Source: a virus. From it: a DNA stretch of 25,234 nt. Below the pieces are notes generated by a model that searched no databases, had not been told where the DNA came from, and saw nothing but the letters and a program-made list of their open reading frames with translations. The translations under genes were made by a program, and so were the position numbers. Of this stretch, positions 4,684 to 16,390 are shown piece after piece. The first letter of the stretch is position 1, and the number at the start of each line of letters is the position of its first letter. The DNA lies in the IMG/VR virus record IMGVR_UViG_3300025853_000596, positions 1 to 25,234 of that record. One strand, given 5' to 3'.

Positions 4684-6039
4684 TTAAACTACAAAAAAGT
4701 TGTTAATTAGATTCCTTTCAATAGCGTAGGAAGTTACGTCAATATGCTCGTCGTGTTTTGCGTTTGGAAATGTGCTAACTTGTTGCAAAAAAGCGTCATT
4801 CCAGGTATCTTTAACAAGATAAACCCTACCCCCCTCAATAAATGGAGACGATGCCCTTGCACGTTCAATTTTAGAGTACCTAACAAAGTTTGTTTTTATT
4901 TCTGATACATTGTATCTAGTTTCACGCCTTAACAGTTGTACAAGCGATTTTCCGGATGCTTTAGGCTCCACTAATATTTGAGATATTGGAACGCCACAAG
5001 ATTGAACAAAGGCAGAAACAAAGTTTTTTAGTTCAGGCATTTCTAAATATTTGTCTATGCTTTTAAATATGTAAAGGTTATCGCCACTTTTACCGCTTAT
5101 TTGTATTCCGGTAGGATCGTTTTTTGTGTCTTTAGTATAAGCGCCATCAATATACATTTCAAAAGATATATCGCTTGGCAGTTCGGCTCTGTTTATAATA
5201 TTAAACCAATCTTTGCGCCATTCACCACCCTCTGGAGGTGATGGAATTTGTAAATACTGACCGCTAAAGGTATATCTGTCCGCTTGGCGTATTGCTTCAA
5301 GTTCATCAAAAGAATGTTTCTCAGGCCATAGCGCATTGTTTTCGTCATCCAATGCTGCTAACTTTAAATGATGCCATTGTTCACCACTTCCGCCGTCTAA
5401 CAAATAACCGCTCAAATCATCTTCGTGTAACCTCTGCATTATTACGATAATTGGAACGTCTCTATCATTAACCCTTGAACGAATAGTTGTATTGTATCGA
5501 TTGTTTATAAAAGAACGCCTAACGTCAGATAAAGCGTCATCAGGCTTTAAAGGATCATCAATTATAATTGCTCCACCACTACCGGCACCAAAACCAGTAA
5601 TTGCACCTCCTGAAGATGTTGCATAAACTCCACCACCTTGCGTTGTGTACCATTTTTTTTGGCTTTGCGAATCCTTTTTTAGTTGTAGATCCCAAATACT
5701 TTGAAAAGCATCTGAATTAATATATTCTTTTGTCATTGAACTATTATCAAGCGCCAACGAATCAGAATAAGATAAATGAATAAATTTTGCCATAGGATTT
5801 TTTGCAAGTGTCCAGGCAATAAACATTTTAACGGCTAATTCAGTTTTTCCGTATCGTGGGGGTATGTTTATTATTAAGCGTTTTATTTCGCCGTTATGAA
5901 CTTTGTGTAATGTGTTGGCTAATGTTTTATGAAACTCTGCTGCCTCGAATTTATTTCCGGTATTCTCTTTGAAAATATAACGAGTAAAAAACAAAAGCGA
6001 ATCTTCACATTTTTGTTTAATTATTTCGTTAATATTCAT
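4684..6039 (-). CDS. terL: Terminase large subunit
   Basis: The 451-residue protein is the packaging motor ATPase and nuclease. Walker A is INIPPRYGKTE (about 57-67), Walker B is GGAIIIDDPL (155-164), and a C-motif/coupling region reads VIMQRLHEDDLSGYLL (199-214). The C-terminal RNase H-like nuclease shows EMYIDGAYT (Asp ~298), ILVEPK (Glu ~358) and EHIDVTSYA (Asp ~434) as candidate metal ligands. Length is typical of a complete TerL. Its start overlaps the preceding small terminase gene by 11 nt, which suggests translational coupling. Confidence 0.96.
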   Translation of the reverse strand: MNINEIIKQKCEDSLLFFTRYIFKENTGNKFEAAEFHKTLANTLHKVHNGEIKRLIINIPPRYGKTELAVKMFIAWTLAKNPMAKFIHLSYSDSLALDNSSMTKEYINSDAFQSIWDLQLKKDSQSQKKWYTTQGGGVYATSSGGAITGFGAGSGGAIIIDDPLKPDDALSDVRRSFINNRYNTTIRSRVNDRDVPIIVIMQRLHEDDLSGYLLDGGSGEQWHHLKLAALDDENNALWPEKHSFDELEAIRQADRYTFSGQYLQIPSPPEGGEWRKDWFNIINRAELPSDISFEMYIDGAYTKDTKNDPTGIQISGKSGDNLYIFKSIDKYLEMPELKNFVSAFVQSCGVPISQILVEPKASGKSLVQLLRRETRYNVSEIKTNFVRYSKIERARASSPFIEGGRVYLVKDTWNDAFLQQVSTFPNAKHDEHIDVTSYAIERNLINNFFVV

Positions 6040-6403
6040 TGTTTAGAATGTCGTCAATCTTTTTTCTTGCTTCGTCAGAGATTTTACTTGTGCTTACTTG
6101 CGCAGTCATTTCAACTTCTTTTCGCTCTACATAGCCACGCTTTTTCCCTTTGGTTTTTAAATAGAATATTGTTGCCGTTGTGTTTCCGTCTTTTATTTGC
6201 TTATGTAATTGTGATTCAGCAAAATCTAAAGTTAGGTTTTGTAATTCATCAACAGACGCTTTAAAATCCTGGTCGTTATTGTAAAACTTATAAAAGGTTG
6301 ATCTATGACAATCAACTATTTTACAAGCGCTTGTAACTACTCCTAATGATTTTTCTAACGCTTTTAAAAGATTATTTTTTAATATGTCGGTTTTTGTTGC
6401 CAT
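6029..6403 (-). CDS. Terminase small subunit (HTH)
   Basis: This 124-residue protein directly precedes and overlaps terL. Residues ~10-45 (KALEKSLGVVTSACKIVDCHRSTFYKFY) form a helix-turn-helix of the kind that small terminases use to recognise packaging sites; shown here in pieces, the recognition helix is probably CHRSTFYKFY. The middle part (QLHKQIKDGNTTATIFYLK) resembles the oligomerisation region of the family, and the tail is charged. TAACTTTG at 6415-6408, just upstream, could be its promoter box. Assignment rests mainly on position, size and HTH. Confidence 0.85.
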   Translation of the reverse strand: MATKTDILKNNLLKALEKSLGVVTSACKIVDCHRSTFYKFYNNDQDFKASVDELQNLTLDFAESQLHKQIKDGNTTATIFYLKTKGKKRGYVERKEVEMTAQVSTSKISDEARKKIDDILNNEY

Positions 6404-6407
6404 AACG

Positions 6408-6415
6408 CAAAGTTA
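6408..6415 (-). promoter_or_regulatory. Candidate -7 promoter box for the packaging/head operon
   Basis: The minus strand reads TAACTTTG, an exact match to the Bacteroidota TAnnTTTG box, directly after a terminator and 4 nt before the small terminase ATG. I see no clear TTG at the -33 position; only a T-rich tract is there. If it is used, the transcript would be leaderless or nearly so. Confidence 0.4.
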
Positions 6416-6430
6416 AAAAAATATAAATAC

Positions 6431-6459
6431 ATAAAAAAACCTCCTATTTCTAGGAGGTT
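6431..6459 (-). terminator. Intrinsic terminator between the cassette gene and the terminase operon
   Basis: On the minus strand AACCTCCTA and TAGGAGGTT form a 9-bp perfect stem with a GAAA tetraloop, followed by seven Ts. It ends transcription of the gene at 6482-6850. Its 28-bp core (6431-6458) is identical to 6944-6971. Confidence 0.88.
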
Positions 6460-6481
6460 ATTTAGTTAGTTATTATTTGTT

Positions 6482-6850
6482 TTATTTATTTAGTATTGTT
6501 TCAACTGAATTAATCATAGATTTAACTTTTTTAATTTCATTTGCGTACCAAGTATGTTTTCCTATAATTAAAATTTCCCTATCATCATTTTCTTGTAGAG
6601 CTTTTTTATTTGATTCTGCACCCTCTTTTGTCCATAATGACGGTAGTTCTTGAAATCTATAATCTAATATTTTAGATCCATCTTTTTTTAATCCGATTGT
6701 TAAAACACCACCTACTGAAATTACATAATTGTGTGACAAGATACTGTTTCTGTACATTTCTTTTTGAAAAGTTAATCTTTCTAAATAATCTTTTGATCTT
6801 TCTAATCCTGCTTGTAATTCGTTTTTAAATTCTGTTGTTAAATTTGCCAT
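6482..6850 (-). CDS. Unknown protein in a moron-like cassette
   Basis: The product is 122 residues and I do not recognise it. Residues ~1-45 are helical and charged, the middle (VISVGGVLTIGLKKDG) looks like beta strands, and the end (ANEIKKVKSMINSVETILNK) is an amphipathic helix. There is no signal peptide, membrane segment or obvious catalytic motif, so it is probably a small cytoplasmic protein. It has its own promoter candidate (6888-6918) and own terminator (6431-6459), unlike its neighbours, and is bounded by two identical terminator repeats. That arrangement is typical of accessory morons; a role in host takeover or counter-defence is only a guess. Confidence 0.8.
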   Translation of the reverse strand: MANLTTEFKNELQAGLERSKDYLERLTFQKEMYRNSILSHNYVISVGGVLTIGLKKDGSKILDYRFQELPSLWTKEGAESNKKALQENDDREILIIGKHTWYANEIKKVKSMINSVETILNK

Positions 6851-6887
6851 TTGTTTAATATTTTAAGTTTAGTTTGTAATTATACAC

Positions 6888-6918
6888 CAAAATTAAAAGA
6901 ATTTTTTCAATTACACAA
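6888..6918 (-). promoter_or_regulatory. Promoter candidate for the cassette gene
   Basis: The minus strand has TTG at 6918-6916, a 20-nt spacer and TAATTTTG at 6895-6888, fitting the Bacteroidota housekeeping promoter (TTTG...TAnnTTTG). It lies just after one terminator and about 38 nt before the ATG at 6850. Confidence 0.55.
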
Positions 6919-6943
6919 GAAAAAACAAAAAAATTTTTAAAAA

Positions 6944-6971
6944 ATAAAAAAACCTCCTATTTCTAGGAGGT
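6944..6971 (-). terminator. Intrinsic terminator upstream of the cassette gene
   Basis: An 8-bp stem (ACCTCCTA / TAGGAGGT) with a GAAA loop on the minus strand, followed by seven Ts. It would stop transcripts arriving from the methyltransferase region. The interval 6972-7083 between it and the next small gene holds no convincing gene, only T-rich DNA and a possible small stem. Confidence 0.85.
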
Positions 6972-7083
6972 ACAAACTCAAATTTTTATGAAAAAAGGAT
7001 TTTTTACTTGGCAGTTTAAATCCTCTGCTAAATTATAATTTTTTTTTTAATTGTACAAACTATTTTCCACACAATTCGCAAAC

Positions 7084-7224
7084 TTATTTTTTATATGATT
7101 TTTTTGCGTCATTATAGGCTTTTAATCTACTTTTTTCGTTTTTATTAAAAGTATAACAATAACCATCTAAACCTTTTTTATAGGCCATTTTCCCATTTAT
7201 TTCAGTTAGATATATTTTTTCCAT
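7084..7224 (-). CDS. Small unknown protein, 46 residues
   Basis: An ATG at 7224 opens a 46-codon frame ending in TAA at 7084. The peptide is basic and Tyr/Lys-rich (MEKIYLTEINGKMAYKKGLD at the start, KAYNDAKKSYKK at the end). Codon use matches the neighbouring phage genes, and it fills most of an otherwise empty gap. I know no family. The upstream 100 nt contain two inverted repeats, so it may be a separate transcription unit. Confidence 0.55.
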   Translation of the reverse strand: MEKIYLTEINGKMAYKKGLDGYCYTFNKNEKSRLKAYNDAKKSYKK

Positions 7225-7240
7225 TTTAATTTGTTAAAGT

Positions 7241-7308
7241 AAAAACAAAGAACTAACAAACTTTGTTTTTTTTTGTAATTAAAGAATAAGTATTGACTGG
7301 TACTTATT
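7241..7308 (-). terminator. Two AT-rich inverted repeats after the ParB-methyltransferase gene
   Basis: AATAAGTA (7285-7292) pairs with TACTTATT (7301-7308) around an 8-nt loop, and AAAAACAAAG (7241-7250) pairs with CTTTGTTTTT (7261-7270) around a 10-nt loop. The second ends in Ts on the minus strand and could be a weak terminator; the first could be a terminator stem or an operator. Stems are poor in GC, so neither is certain. Confidence 0.4.
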
Positions 7309-7325
7309 AAAATTTAAAGAACGTT

Positions 7326-8408
7326 TTAGTTTTTAATGTATTTTTTTCCGTTTATTTTAACTTCTAAATTTTCATCAAGTTTTAACATTCTATCAATTAT
7401 AACTTGGCAATATTTTGGATCAAGTTCCATTCCATAGCATTTGCGATTAAGTTGATGTGCTGCTACCATTGTTGAGCCTGATCCGAGAAAAATGTCTAAA
7501 ATTGGATTTTTGTTATCTATTAGATTTATGCACCATTCAATTAATTTTACTGGTTTCATTGTAGGATGCAATTTTGATTCCCTACCCCAATGATGTGAAA
7601 ATATTCTTGTATTTTTTCCTATATTACTCCAAGCCAACTCAAACTCACTAAAACTTAAACCATCATTTTTTTTATACCAACAAAGCCAATCGTTATTAAT
7701 TTCTAATTTATCAGCAAAATAATTTCCACCCCATACAATTGCTTTATCAACAAGTGATATTATATAATAAAAATCAGGAACTTCTTTGTCCCAATTATTT
7801 CCTCTATAAAAATCTTTTTTACCTGTTCCTAAAGTTTGTTTATTAGCATTAATACCATAAGGAGGATCAGTAATTAAATTTACAACACTTTTATTGATTA
7901 ACTTCGCCACTTGGTCTGAATCCGTACTATCGCCACATAGTAAACGATGCTCACCAATCTCTATTAAATCACCAAGCACAACATCAACTTGCATATCTTC
8001 AGGCTCAGAATAATCATCTTCTTCAGCTTCTAAAACTTCTTCTTCAAAAGGAAAACCATCTAAACCCCATTCTTCTAATTGCTGAACATCCCATTCATTC
8101 GCTAGTATGTCCCAATCCCATTCACCAAAGCCAACATTGTCTTTAACAATAAACTCTCTTTTTTGTTCTTCTGTCCATCCCTCAGCAATATCAATCCAAA
8201 CCTCAAACAACCCGGCAGACTTACACGCCTTTAAACGCATATTTCCGCCAAGAACAACCATATTCTCATCAACTACTATTGGCCGTTTCTCTAACATCTC
8301 AGGAAACGCCTTAATTGACTTGACTAATTTTTTAAATTTGGAATCTTTTATAAATCTAGGATTGTCCGGATTTTCTTTTACCGAAGCAATATTTACTTTT
8401 TGTTTCAT
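7326..8408 (-). CDS. ParB-like domain fused to a DNA amino-methyltransferase
   Basis: The 360-residue protein has an N-terminal ParB/sulfiredoxin-like domain (NPDNPRF at 13-19, KRPIVVDENMVVLGGNMRLK at about 41-60), an acidic linker (~120-140), and a C-terminal SAM-dependent methyltransferase. Motif IV is TDPPYG (180-185), then SKLHPTMKP (279-286) and motif I DIFLGSGST (305-313). DPPY marks N6-adenine or N4-cytosine methylation and the order IV before I marks the beta class. No restriction partner is adjacent, so it is probably an orphan protecting phage DNA. The recognition site cannot be read from sequence. Confidence 0.93.
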   Translation of the reverse strand: MKQKVNIASVKENPDNPRFIKDSKFKKLVKSIKAFPEMLEKRPIVVDENMVVLGGNMRLKACKSAGLFEVWIDIAEGWTEEQKREFIVKDNVGFGEWDWDILANEWDVQQLEEWGLDGFPFEEEVLEAEEDDYSEPEDMQVDVVLGDLIEIGEHRLLCGDSTDSDQVAKLINKSVVNLITDPPYGINANKQTLGTGKKDFYRGNNWDKEVPDFYYIISLVDKAIVWGGNYFADKLEINNDWLCWYKKNDGLSFSEFELAWSNIGKNTRIFSHHWGRESKLHPTMKPVKLIEWCINLIDNKNPILDIFLGSGSTMVAAHQLNRKCYGMELDPKYCQVIIDRMLKLDENLEVKINGKKYIKN

Positions 8409-14133: not shown

Positions 14134-14916
14134 TTATAATATTAAACTTCCATCTTCTGAAAACTCGTTCCAGTTGTAACCCGAAATAATTCCGGTATCT
14201 TTATATATTTTCCAATCGCTAAACGCTCTTTTCCAAGCTCTGCGGCCTTGATTAATCATTTCTTCACTTAATCCGTAAACCTCTACTGAAAAAGGATAAT
14301 TAGTTTCAACCGCTATAAATCTAAAATTTTCAGCCGGTATTCCTAACATATCCGAATAAAAAGCACATTGTAAATGATAGCCGTATTTATAAATATCTCT
14401 TTTAAACGCCATTGGCGTATTGTTTTGGCAAGTTTTAACGTCGCTAATAAAGTTTTCAATTTTGTTTAGGCAATCAGGCCTTACACGAACTTGCAAACCC
14501 TCGTGTTCTAAGTAATGCGACAATTCAATTTCGCCTTTGCAATATTTTTGTGCTAAATCGTGATTCCTAAAGTTGTTAAGAATCGCAGTAATTTTTTGGT
14601 GATCGTCAAAGGAAACAATTTGTTTTCCCTCTGCTTTTTCAATTTCAATAGCATATTGTTTTTTTCCTGGAGTTGTTCTTCTATCTATTTTTGGTAAAAC
14701 GTGAAAATCTTTGTAATACAATTCCGGTTCTAGCATTGCACAATGCACCGCAGTTCCTAAAGCCATTGCAGAAGATTCAAAAGGCTTTTGATTTATAAAA
14801 TGATAAACCGATTTTTCAAATATTTTTTTTAAACCTGAAGCGCTTATTCCAGGTGATGAATGATATTTTTCATTACTATCAAATAACGCTTTTATTTCTT
14901 TTTGTTTTGTTTGCAT
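14134..14916 (-). CDS. RecE-like exonuclease (PD-(D/E)XK, exodeoxyribonuclease VIII family)
   Basis: The 260-residue protein has the family layout: ISASGLKKIFEKSVYHF (24-40), GTAVHCAMLEPE (54-65, His ~58), VRVRPDCL (143-150, Asp ~148), ISDVKTCQ (157-164, Asp ~159 and Lys ~161) and YGYHLQCAFYSDM (178-190, Gln ~183, Tyr ~187). These are the metal-binding and catalytic positions of RecE/lambda-exo-type nucleases, which degrade one strand of duplex DNA to expose 3' tails. The Rad52-like protein encoded upstream would anneal those tails, giving a two-component recombination system. Length suggests the isolated nuclease domain. Confidence 0.9.
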   Translation of the reverse strand: MQTKQKEIKALFDSNEKYHSSPGISASGLKKIFEKSVYHFINQKPFESSAMALGTAVHCAMLEPELYYKDFHVLPKIDRRTTPGKKQYAIEIEKAEGKQIVSFDDHQKITAILNNFRNHDLAQKYCKGEIELSHYLEHEGLQVRVRPDCLNKIENFISDVKTCQNNTPMAFKRDIYKYGYHLQCAFYSDMLGIPAENFRFIAVETNYPFSVEVYGLSEEMINQGRRAWKRAFSDWKIYKDTGIISGYNWNEFSEDGSLIL

Positions 14917-15766: not shown

Positions 15767-16390
15767 CTATTTTAAATTAAACTTATTTACTATTTGATCC
15801 TTATAAACCTTTTTCATTTTAAAAGTTTTTAAAACTTGTTCGGCTTGTTCTTTTGTGGCTTTCAATGTTGCATTGAATTGCGATTCTGTTAGCCATTTTC
15901 TGTCGTCAGTTGGCGCCGGTTGAGTTGGCTGATTGTTAAGCTGATTAATATGCTTTGTTATATCCCAAACCTTTTGACCATTATTATCAACAACATTTGG
16001 ATAATTATTTGAAGTCTTTACTGCATCCGCCTTTAAGTAAACCATTTTTTTAGAATACAAAAATCTACCAATGCCGAATTTAACTGCTGCCCTTTTAAAA
16101 GCGTCTGAGCTTTGACCTTTTTGTGCTTCAACGTTACTTTCACTTCCGGCGTCAGATCTTTTATACTCAATACCATCTGCATAAATTGTAATCTCACAAA
16201 AAAGCATACCATTTACGGAATAATACCTATCTGACCAAATACAATGTTTATCAAGAACATCTTGAACGTCTCGACTATCAATATAAGCCACGCAAGTTGC
16301 CTGGGGCTTATGCTTACTAAAACTTTGCACCCTCCACTTGTAGGGTATTTCTTTTTTTAATTCCTGTTGAATTTGTTTTAATTCTTTCAT
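15767..16390 (-). CDS. Rad52-like single-strand annealing protein (Sak-type)
   Basis: The 207-residue protein matches the phage Rad52/Sak group: IPYKWRVQSFSKHKPQATCV at 15-34, AYIDSRDVQDVLDKHCIWSD (35-54), GMLFCEITIYADGIEYKRSD (61-80), then GQSSDAFKRAAVKFGIGRFL (92-111), which is the most diagnostic segment. The last ~70 residues are a Pro/Gln/Thr-rich linker and a basic helical end. These proteins form rings that anneal complementary single strands. It would work with the RecE-like exonuclease and SSB-like protein encoded downstream. Confidence 0.9.
   Translation of the reverse strand: MKELKQIQQELKKEIPYKWRVQSFSKHKPQATCVAYIDSRDVQDVLDKHCIWSDRYYSVNGMLFCEITIYADGIEYKRSDAGSESNVEAQKGQSSDAFKRAAVKFGIGRFLYSKKMVYLKADAVKTSNNYPNVVDNNGQKVWDITKHINQLNNQPTQPAPTDDRKWLTESQFNATLKATKEQAEQVLKTFKMKKVYKDQIVNKFNLK

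Follow-up and report, generated by a model that had tools for sequence, protein, structure and literature searches.

A probable accessory-gene slot with composite terminator-promoter elements at both ends, beside the terminase genes of a small phage

A segment bordering the terminase operon of a small phage is probably an accessory-gene slot of the moron type, which possesses composite terminator-promoter elements at both ends and whose guest genes are exchanged by homologous recombination. The DNA analyzed (the window) is a 25.2-kb virus record, with which it is coextensive. Presence and absence of a cassette in the slot, differing contents, exact junctions, and shared modules at both ends were observed in the window and in related contigs. 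The segment in the window would be one filling of this slot, which lies between a putative non-coding RNA (ncRNA) gene and the terminase operon. The positions of the features are listed in Table 1.

Table 1. Features of the slot and of its surroundings (positions in the window)
Feature	Position	Strand	Basis
Terminase large subunit (TerL)	4684-6039	-	PHROG 38, E 1.9e-97
Terminase small subunit (TerS), first gene past the slot	6029-6403	-	PHROG 309, E 2.5e-9
Right module, terminator + TerS promoter, ~59 nt	6401-6459	-	-7 box TAACTTTG at 6415-6408; common to occupied sites
Downstream repeat, predicted guest-gene terminator	6431-6458	-	Fold; 28/28 match
Guest gene, 122-residue protein	6482-6850	-	ORF; relatives at 79-100%; without family; weak model
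Predicted cassette promoter	6888-6918	-	-33 TTG (6918-6916), 20-nt spacer, -7 TAATTTTG (6895-6888)
Left module, terminator + cassette promoter, ~84 nt	6888-6971	-	Alignment of nine cassettes; pattern in 20 contigs
Upstream repeat, predicted terminator of the unit before the cassette	6944-6971	-	28/28 match, fold, covariation; stem 6971-6952, GAAA loop, T tract
513-bp unit present in the window, absent from L180	6459-6971 (equally 6431-6943)	-	Pairwise alignment
Putative ncRNA, ~80 nt, ends in the upstream terminator	6945-7023	-	Conserved in related sites
Exonuclease VIII-like PD-(D/E)XK nuclease, candidate partner	14134-14916	-	PHROG 412, E 4.4e-65; DUF3799, E 5.7e-26
Erf-like/Rad52-type ssDNA-annealing protein, candidate recombinase	15767-16390	-	PHROG 1097, E 6.7e-28; Pfam Rad52_Rad22, E 4.9e-9

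Upstream of the slot, a ParB-like/methyltransferase gene (7326-8408) and a small ORF were found, and both terminase subunits are encoded downstream. As the preliminary description of this DNA had stated, the phage carries genes for an annealing protein and an exonuclease. The putative ncRNA is predicted to form two hairpins (z -2.71), and no ORF is present in the region 6945-7059. Its putative promoter is composed of TTTG (7059-7056), N20 and TAATTTAG (7035-7028) on the minus strand, and its upstream hairpin, AGGATT...AATCCT, contains one covarying pair. An Rfam search, which included the putative ncRNA, gave nothing at gathering thresholds.

A second mosaic joint was observed at 7060-8046 (minus strand). 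The ParB-like gene of the relative L180, and of further relatives, has the C-terminal sequence ...KEVCELCGK. In this region the window possesses a methyltransferase part and a gene for 46 residues, and a remnant of the KEVCELCGK tail is left.

The phages bearing the slot are small, come from marine and estuarine settings, and probably have Bacteroidota hosts. The host was deduced from the promoter type; a host search on genome contigs returned mostly contigs of metagenome-assembled genomes (MAGs). The closest TerL match among genome contigs was 86%, in a contig binned as Woesearchaeota, and a match at 68% was found in a Lutibacter MAG contig. The former, a 35.8-kb contig in a Candidatus Woesearchaeota MAG bin (L191), is probably a stray phage contig inside an archaeal bin. 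DNA searches for near and distant matches in 50,697 phage records gave no match for the window or for the site.

The two 28-bp repeats are identical at all positions and the match extends no further on either side. No longer exact direct repeat exists in the window, and no other one reaches 20 nt; in 100 dinucleotide shuffles of the window, the longest repeat had a mean of 16.2 and a maximum of 19. On the minus strand, which is also the direction of the neighboring genes, both copies read ACCTCCTAGAAATAGGAGGT-TTTTTTAT. Each copy folds as an intrinsic terminator, as described previously, with a hairpin followed by a T tract, and this structure is kept among relatives. The stem is 8 bp (9 bp in the downstream copy) with a GAAA loop, and the predicted energy is -11.9 kcal/mol. 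Sixteen hairpin variants from relatives, including distant ones, were compared; these were selected for the GAAA loop, which is therefore constant by choice. Standard pairs occupied 99.3% of the pair cells, and five of the nine pairs were altered on both sides. Based on these two observations, the terminator hairpin is judged to be a conserved RNA structure, kept by compensatory changes. The perfect identity of the two repeats, however, holds for the window and not as a rule: in most relatives, the two terminators of a genome are alleles.

The promoter candidate within the segment fits the Bacteroidota-type motif, and a near-identical sequence precedes different genes in relatives. The consensus of Bacteroidota promoters is of the type TTG-N-TAnnTTTG. 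Together with the upstream terminator, this promoter makes up the left module, which is common to cassettes with different genes and precedes six unrelated first genes. Similarity between cassettes ends at or shortly past the -7 box of this module, which is slightly diverged in L154. In 20 of 20 contigs, the cassette-promoter pattern lies 40-47 nt past the stem start of the terminator of the site. The right module is near-identical from the downstream terminator to the TerS ATG, with the exception of the cassette that carries an 83-residue gene, and the same terminator-to-ATG arrangement is found at empty sites. The hairpins would terminate transcription and the -33/-7 motifs would initiate it.

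The TerS -7 box (TAACTTTG) stops 4 nt before the TerS ATG (6401-6415, minus strand) and is kept in relatives. Thus, the TerS mRNA would be leaderless or almost so. Moreover, the TerS type changes directly after the start codon (MATKTD, MAHDTK, MTTNSY), while the preceding promoter is constant (position 6401 of the window; L159, L088, L091 and L089).

IMG/VR contigs were searched for the site. The pattern of the upstream terminator and its flank gave 46 contigs, of which 26 were empty (one terminator, then the TerS promoter) and 20 possessed a cassette. The cassette-promoter pattern gave 20 contigs, identical with the occupied set; in the other 26, the TerS ATG lies 55 or 56 nt past the stem start. 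The TerS-side flank, used as a third pattern, brought in one further empty contig and three further occupied ones (27 empty, 23 occupied). The scan showed one slot site per contig. Close TerS/TerL relatives possess mostly a single hairpin ~55 nt before the TerS start, and some possess two with variable spacing. Many of the contigs are near-copies, and the distinct forms amount to 11 complete inserts and 19 empty sites.

The complete inserts have eight contents with six unrelated first genes. These are the 122-residue gene; the 122-residue gene (121 residues in L157) with a 50-residue gene; a 62-residue gene; the 62-residue gene with a 73-residue gene; a 95-residue gene; a 76-residue gene; the 83-residue gene; and an 88-residue gene with the same 50-residue gene. 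For the cassette genes, no annotated family was found and there were weak sub-threshold matches only. One guest was detected with more than one TerS type behind it, and one TerS type with more than one guest. Homologues of the 62-, 76-, and 95-residue proteins (53-76% identity) are encoded at the corresponding place in front of TerS genes that are 71-81% identical. Thus, the slot is old. The preliminary description had viewed the repeats as a natural plug-in site for accessory genes, for which empty one-repeat sites and different genes between two repeats were to be sought in relatives. Both kinds of site were detected, and together with L180 they strongly support this view. The opposite outcome, the same gene in every relative, was not observed.

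All but one of the contents end in the terminator and TerS-promoter module. The exception is the 83-residue cassette (L154, L169 and L274), which is without the downstream terminator copy and has another downstream end. In L154 and L274, the 83-residue gene is bounded by GTTGTTGGGTTTAG ... AACCCAAC, which appear attC-like by eye (unscored). This gene was possibly captured from an integron array.

The relative L180 is near-isogenic with the window, being 99.86% identical over 3,452 nt and 99.25% over 3,198 nt (~6.6 kb), and lacks exactly the 513-bp unit. It had been predicted that recombination between the repeats would delete promoter and gene and leave one terminator, and L180 has this form. 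Its flanks are identical at the joint, including the last 112 nt, and the contig ends 112 nt past the stem start. L180 is also without the methyltransferase insertion. Therefore, L180 represents a separate strain rather than an assembly variant of the genome in the window.

Probable traces of recombination were also found in the terminator alleles. Among the upstream copies of occupied sites, the flank TAAGTTTGT is accompanied by one terminator allele (17/17) and the flank TGAGTTTGT by another (4/4). Three groups, with six empty contigs in all, pair an upstream flank with an allele that is elsewhere found only in downstream copies. This combination is the one predicted for a crossover inside the repeat; the positions concerned are few and belong to the stem, in which such changes may also arise by compensatory mutation. 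In L011, nine bases from the beginning of the empty-site flank separate the upstream terminator from the cassette promoter, a trace expected of a cassette entering an empty site. On the terminase tree, 11 changes of content and nine of presence or absence were counted; since the well-supported branches force just two of these nine gains or losses, the number of independent events is uncertain.

An alternative which we consider unlikely is illegitimate mosaicism, in which joints arise anywhere, survivors lie between transcription units, and terminators are conserved for termination alone. The structural conservation of terminators in single-copy relatives is consistent with this explanation, as are the different downstream end of the 83-residue cassette and two nearby joints outside terminators, namely the methyltransferase insertion and the TerS allele switch after the ATG. 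However, the slot has base-exact joints, one ~84-nt module stands before six first genes that are unrelated, and the empty sites show the flank and allele combinations expected from a crossover in the repeat.

Loss only, that is, a full ancestor from which empty forms arose by deletion between repeats while guests were never exchanged, is improbable. The comparison of L180 with the window is equally readable as a deletion, and a tail similar to a guest-gene 3' end is retained in single-terminator outgroups. Six unrelated first genes in the same position, one guest beside different TerS types, and the insertion trace in L011 argue against it. We rejected it in view of the different guests behind one promoter module.

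Site-specific mobility, by an integron-like or recombinase-driven cassette, is highly improbable. Interchangeable small genes occupy a fixed place, and the ends of the 83-residue cassette are attC-like by eye (unscored). However, Phage_integrase (PF00589) gave no match in the window and seven related records (some of them fragments), no recognisable recombinase is encoded by a cassette among the inserts examined, terminators form the usual joints, and the promoter moves with the gene. An integron was rejected as the general mechanism.

That metagenome assembly made the second repeat, a doubt already raised in the preliminary description, or the empty form, is scarcely credible: these are metagenome contigs, exact repeats can cause misassembly, and the L180 contig stops close to the joint, but three other contigs match the arrangement of the window at 99.99-100% identity, many contigs share the architecture with diverged terminators and other genes, and L180 differs also by substitutions and a second insertion.

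We therefore retain the reading as an accessory-gene slot with exchange by homologous recombination. The composite element at the left end (hairpin, then promoter) would drive the guest gene, and the one at the right end would drive the terminase. A guest would come as promoter, gene and terminator, with no added read-through on either side. Since the terminator is common to both ends, and phages with different guests have ~84 nt in common at the left end and ~59 nt at the right end, homologous recombination could swap guests, fill an empty site or remove a cassette. The crossovers would occur within the terminator elements through the Erf/Rad52-type annealing protein and the exonuclease of the phage. 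Recombination by the annealing protein had been proposed before; the presence of its gene stands, and we infer its part. The likeliest role of the arrangement would be insulation and exchange, so that gain, loss or exchange of a guest would leave the preceding unit and the terminase operon undisturbed. It is possible, and we suggest it tentatively, that the slot is dedicated to exchange and long-lived, with composite elements kept by selection for both recombination and transcription; the phages of a population would then trade small genes from a common pool as one insulated unit beside the terminase.

The preliminary description had placed one gene for a 122-residue protein between the repeats, and the ORF confirms this. 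It had further proposed that the protein is a host-interaction factor. This proposal gained no support: no annotated family was found, and structure prediction gave a weak fold model (pLDDT 68.8, pTM 0.53) with long terminal helices flanking a short sheet. A Foldseek search with this model (pLDDT 68.8) gave no significant match in the PDB, and its best viral matches (E 0.009 and above) were unnamed or uncharacterized phage proteins. The protein had no match in 50,697 phage records, weak sub-threshold matches only in Pfam and PHROGs, and none in PADLOC. A search of 2.9 million viral contigs detected just six related loci, of which three belong to the same phage, and an alignment-based rescan returned the identical six. 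The protein is most likely a dispensable small accessory (moron) protein of the phage. One relative, in L007, is 79% identical and lies in its own unit with its own promoter, in a phage with an unrelated terminase. The adjoining gene (L007 4926-5705) is 41% identical over 78 residues to a gene of the TerS slot in L042. Thus, L007 and the TerS-slot contexts draw on a common gene pool.

Gain and loss of accessory genes are known in phages, but the joints are seldom caught. For the present slot, public data contain empty and filled forms side by side, together with forms of other filling and hybrids, and a near-isogenic pair is among them. Gene exchange mediated by terminators is therefore directly testable outside the T4-like phages. 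The ~84-nt module is a sequence handle with which small phage genes can be collected from metagenomes, and the guest genes are a shortlist of small proteins worth screening.

By sequence, the arrangement would count as a moron (definition in PMC6316719; an example with its own promoter and terminator in PMC3918226). A small extra gene lies between conserved genes and is absent from close relatives (L180 and 25 other empty contigs versus 20 occupied). It possesses its own predicted promoter (TTG-N20-TAATTTTG) and a covarying hairpin with a T tract, also predicted, and its relative in a phage with an unrelated terminase (L007) speaks for a horizontal origin. However, the slot terminator is present at both ends and is common to different guests, so that the slot is a recurrent unit. 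A further mark of morons is expression from a prophage, apart from the phage programme, with a benefit for host or lysogen; for the slot phages, no integrase (PF00589) was found in eight records, fragments among them. As in integron cassettes, small genes are interchangeable at a fixed site. Unlike integron cassettes, no integrase was found for the slot in these records, no attC occurs at the general joints, and the promoter accompanies the gene.

Promoter-early stem-loops (PeSLs) of T4-like phages have reportedly been described by Arbiol et al. (2010; doi 10.1093/gbe/evq006) and Comeau et al. (2014; doi 10.1093/gbe/evu129). Both ends of the slot resemble them in that a terminator stem-loop is joined to a promoter beside small accessory genes. 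PeSLs are composite promoter-terminator motifs of T4-like phages, reported to mediate gene shuffling, with the composite as the probable homology by which small genes are shuffled (PMC4503421). However, the slot phages are small and of Bacteroidota type, as is the promoter, and are not T4-like; the terminase of the 25-kb record is unlike T4-like ones in its best matches. PeSLs are many and spread over a hypervariable region, whereas here one slot lies beside the terminase, with two repeat copies in the window. Moreover, empty and filled near-isogenic forms were seen for the slot. By analogy, the slot would work most like PeSL elements, although it is not a PeSL by membership.
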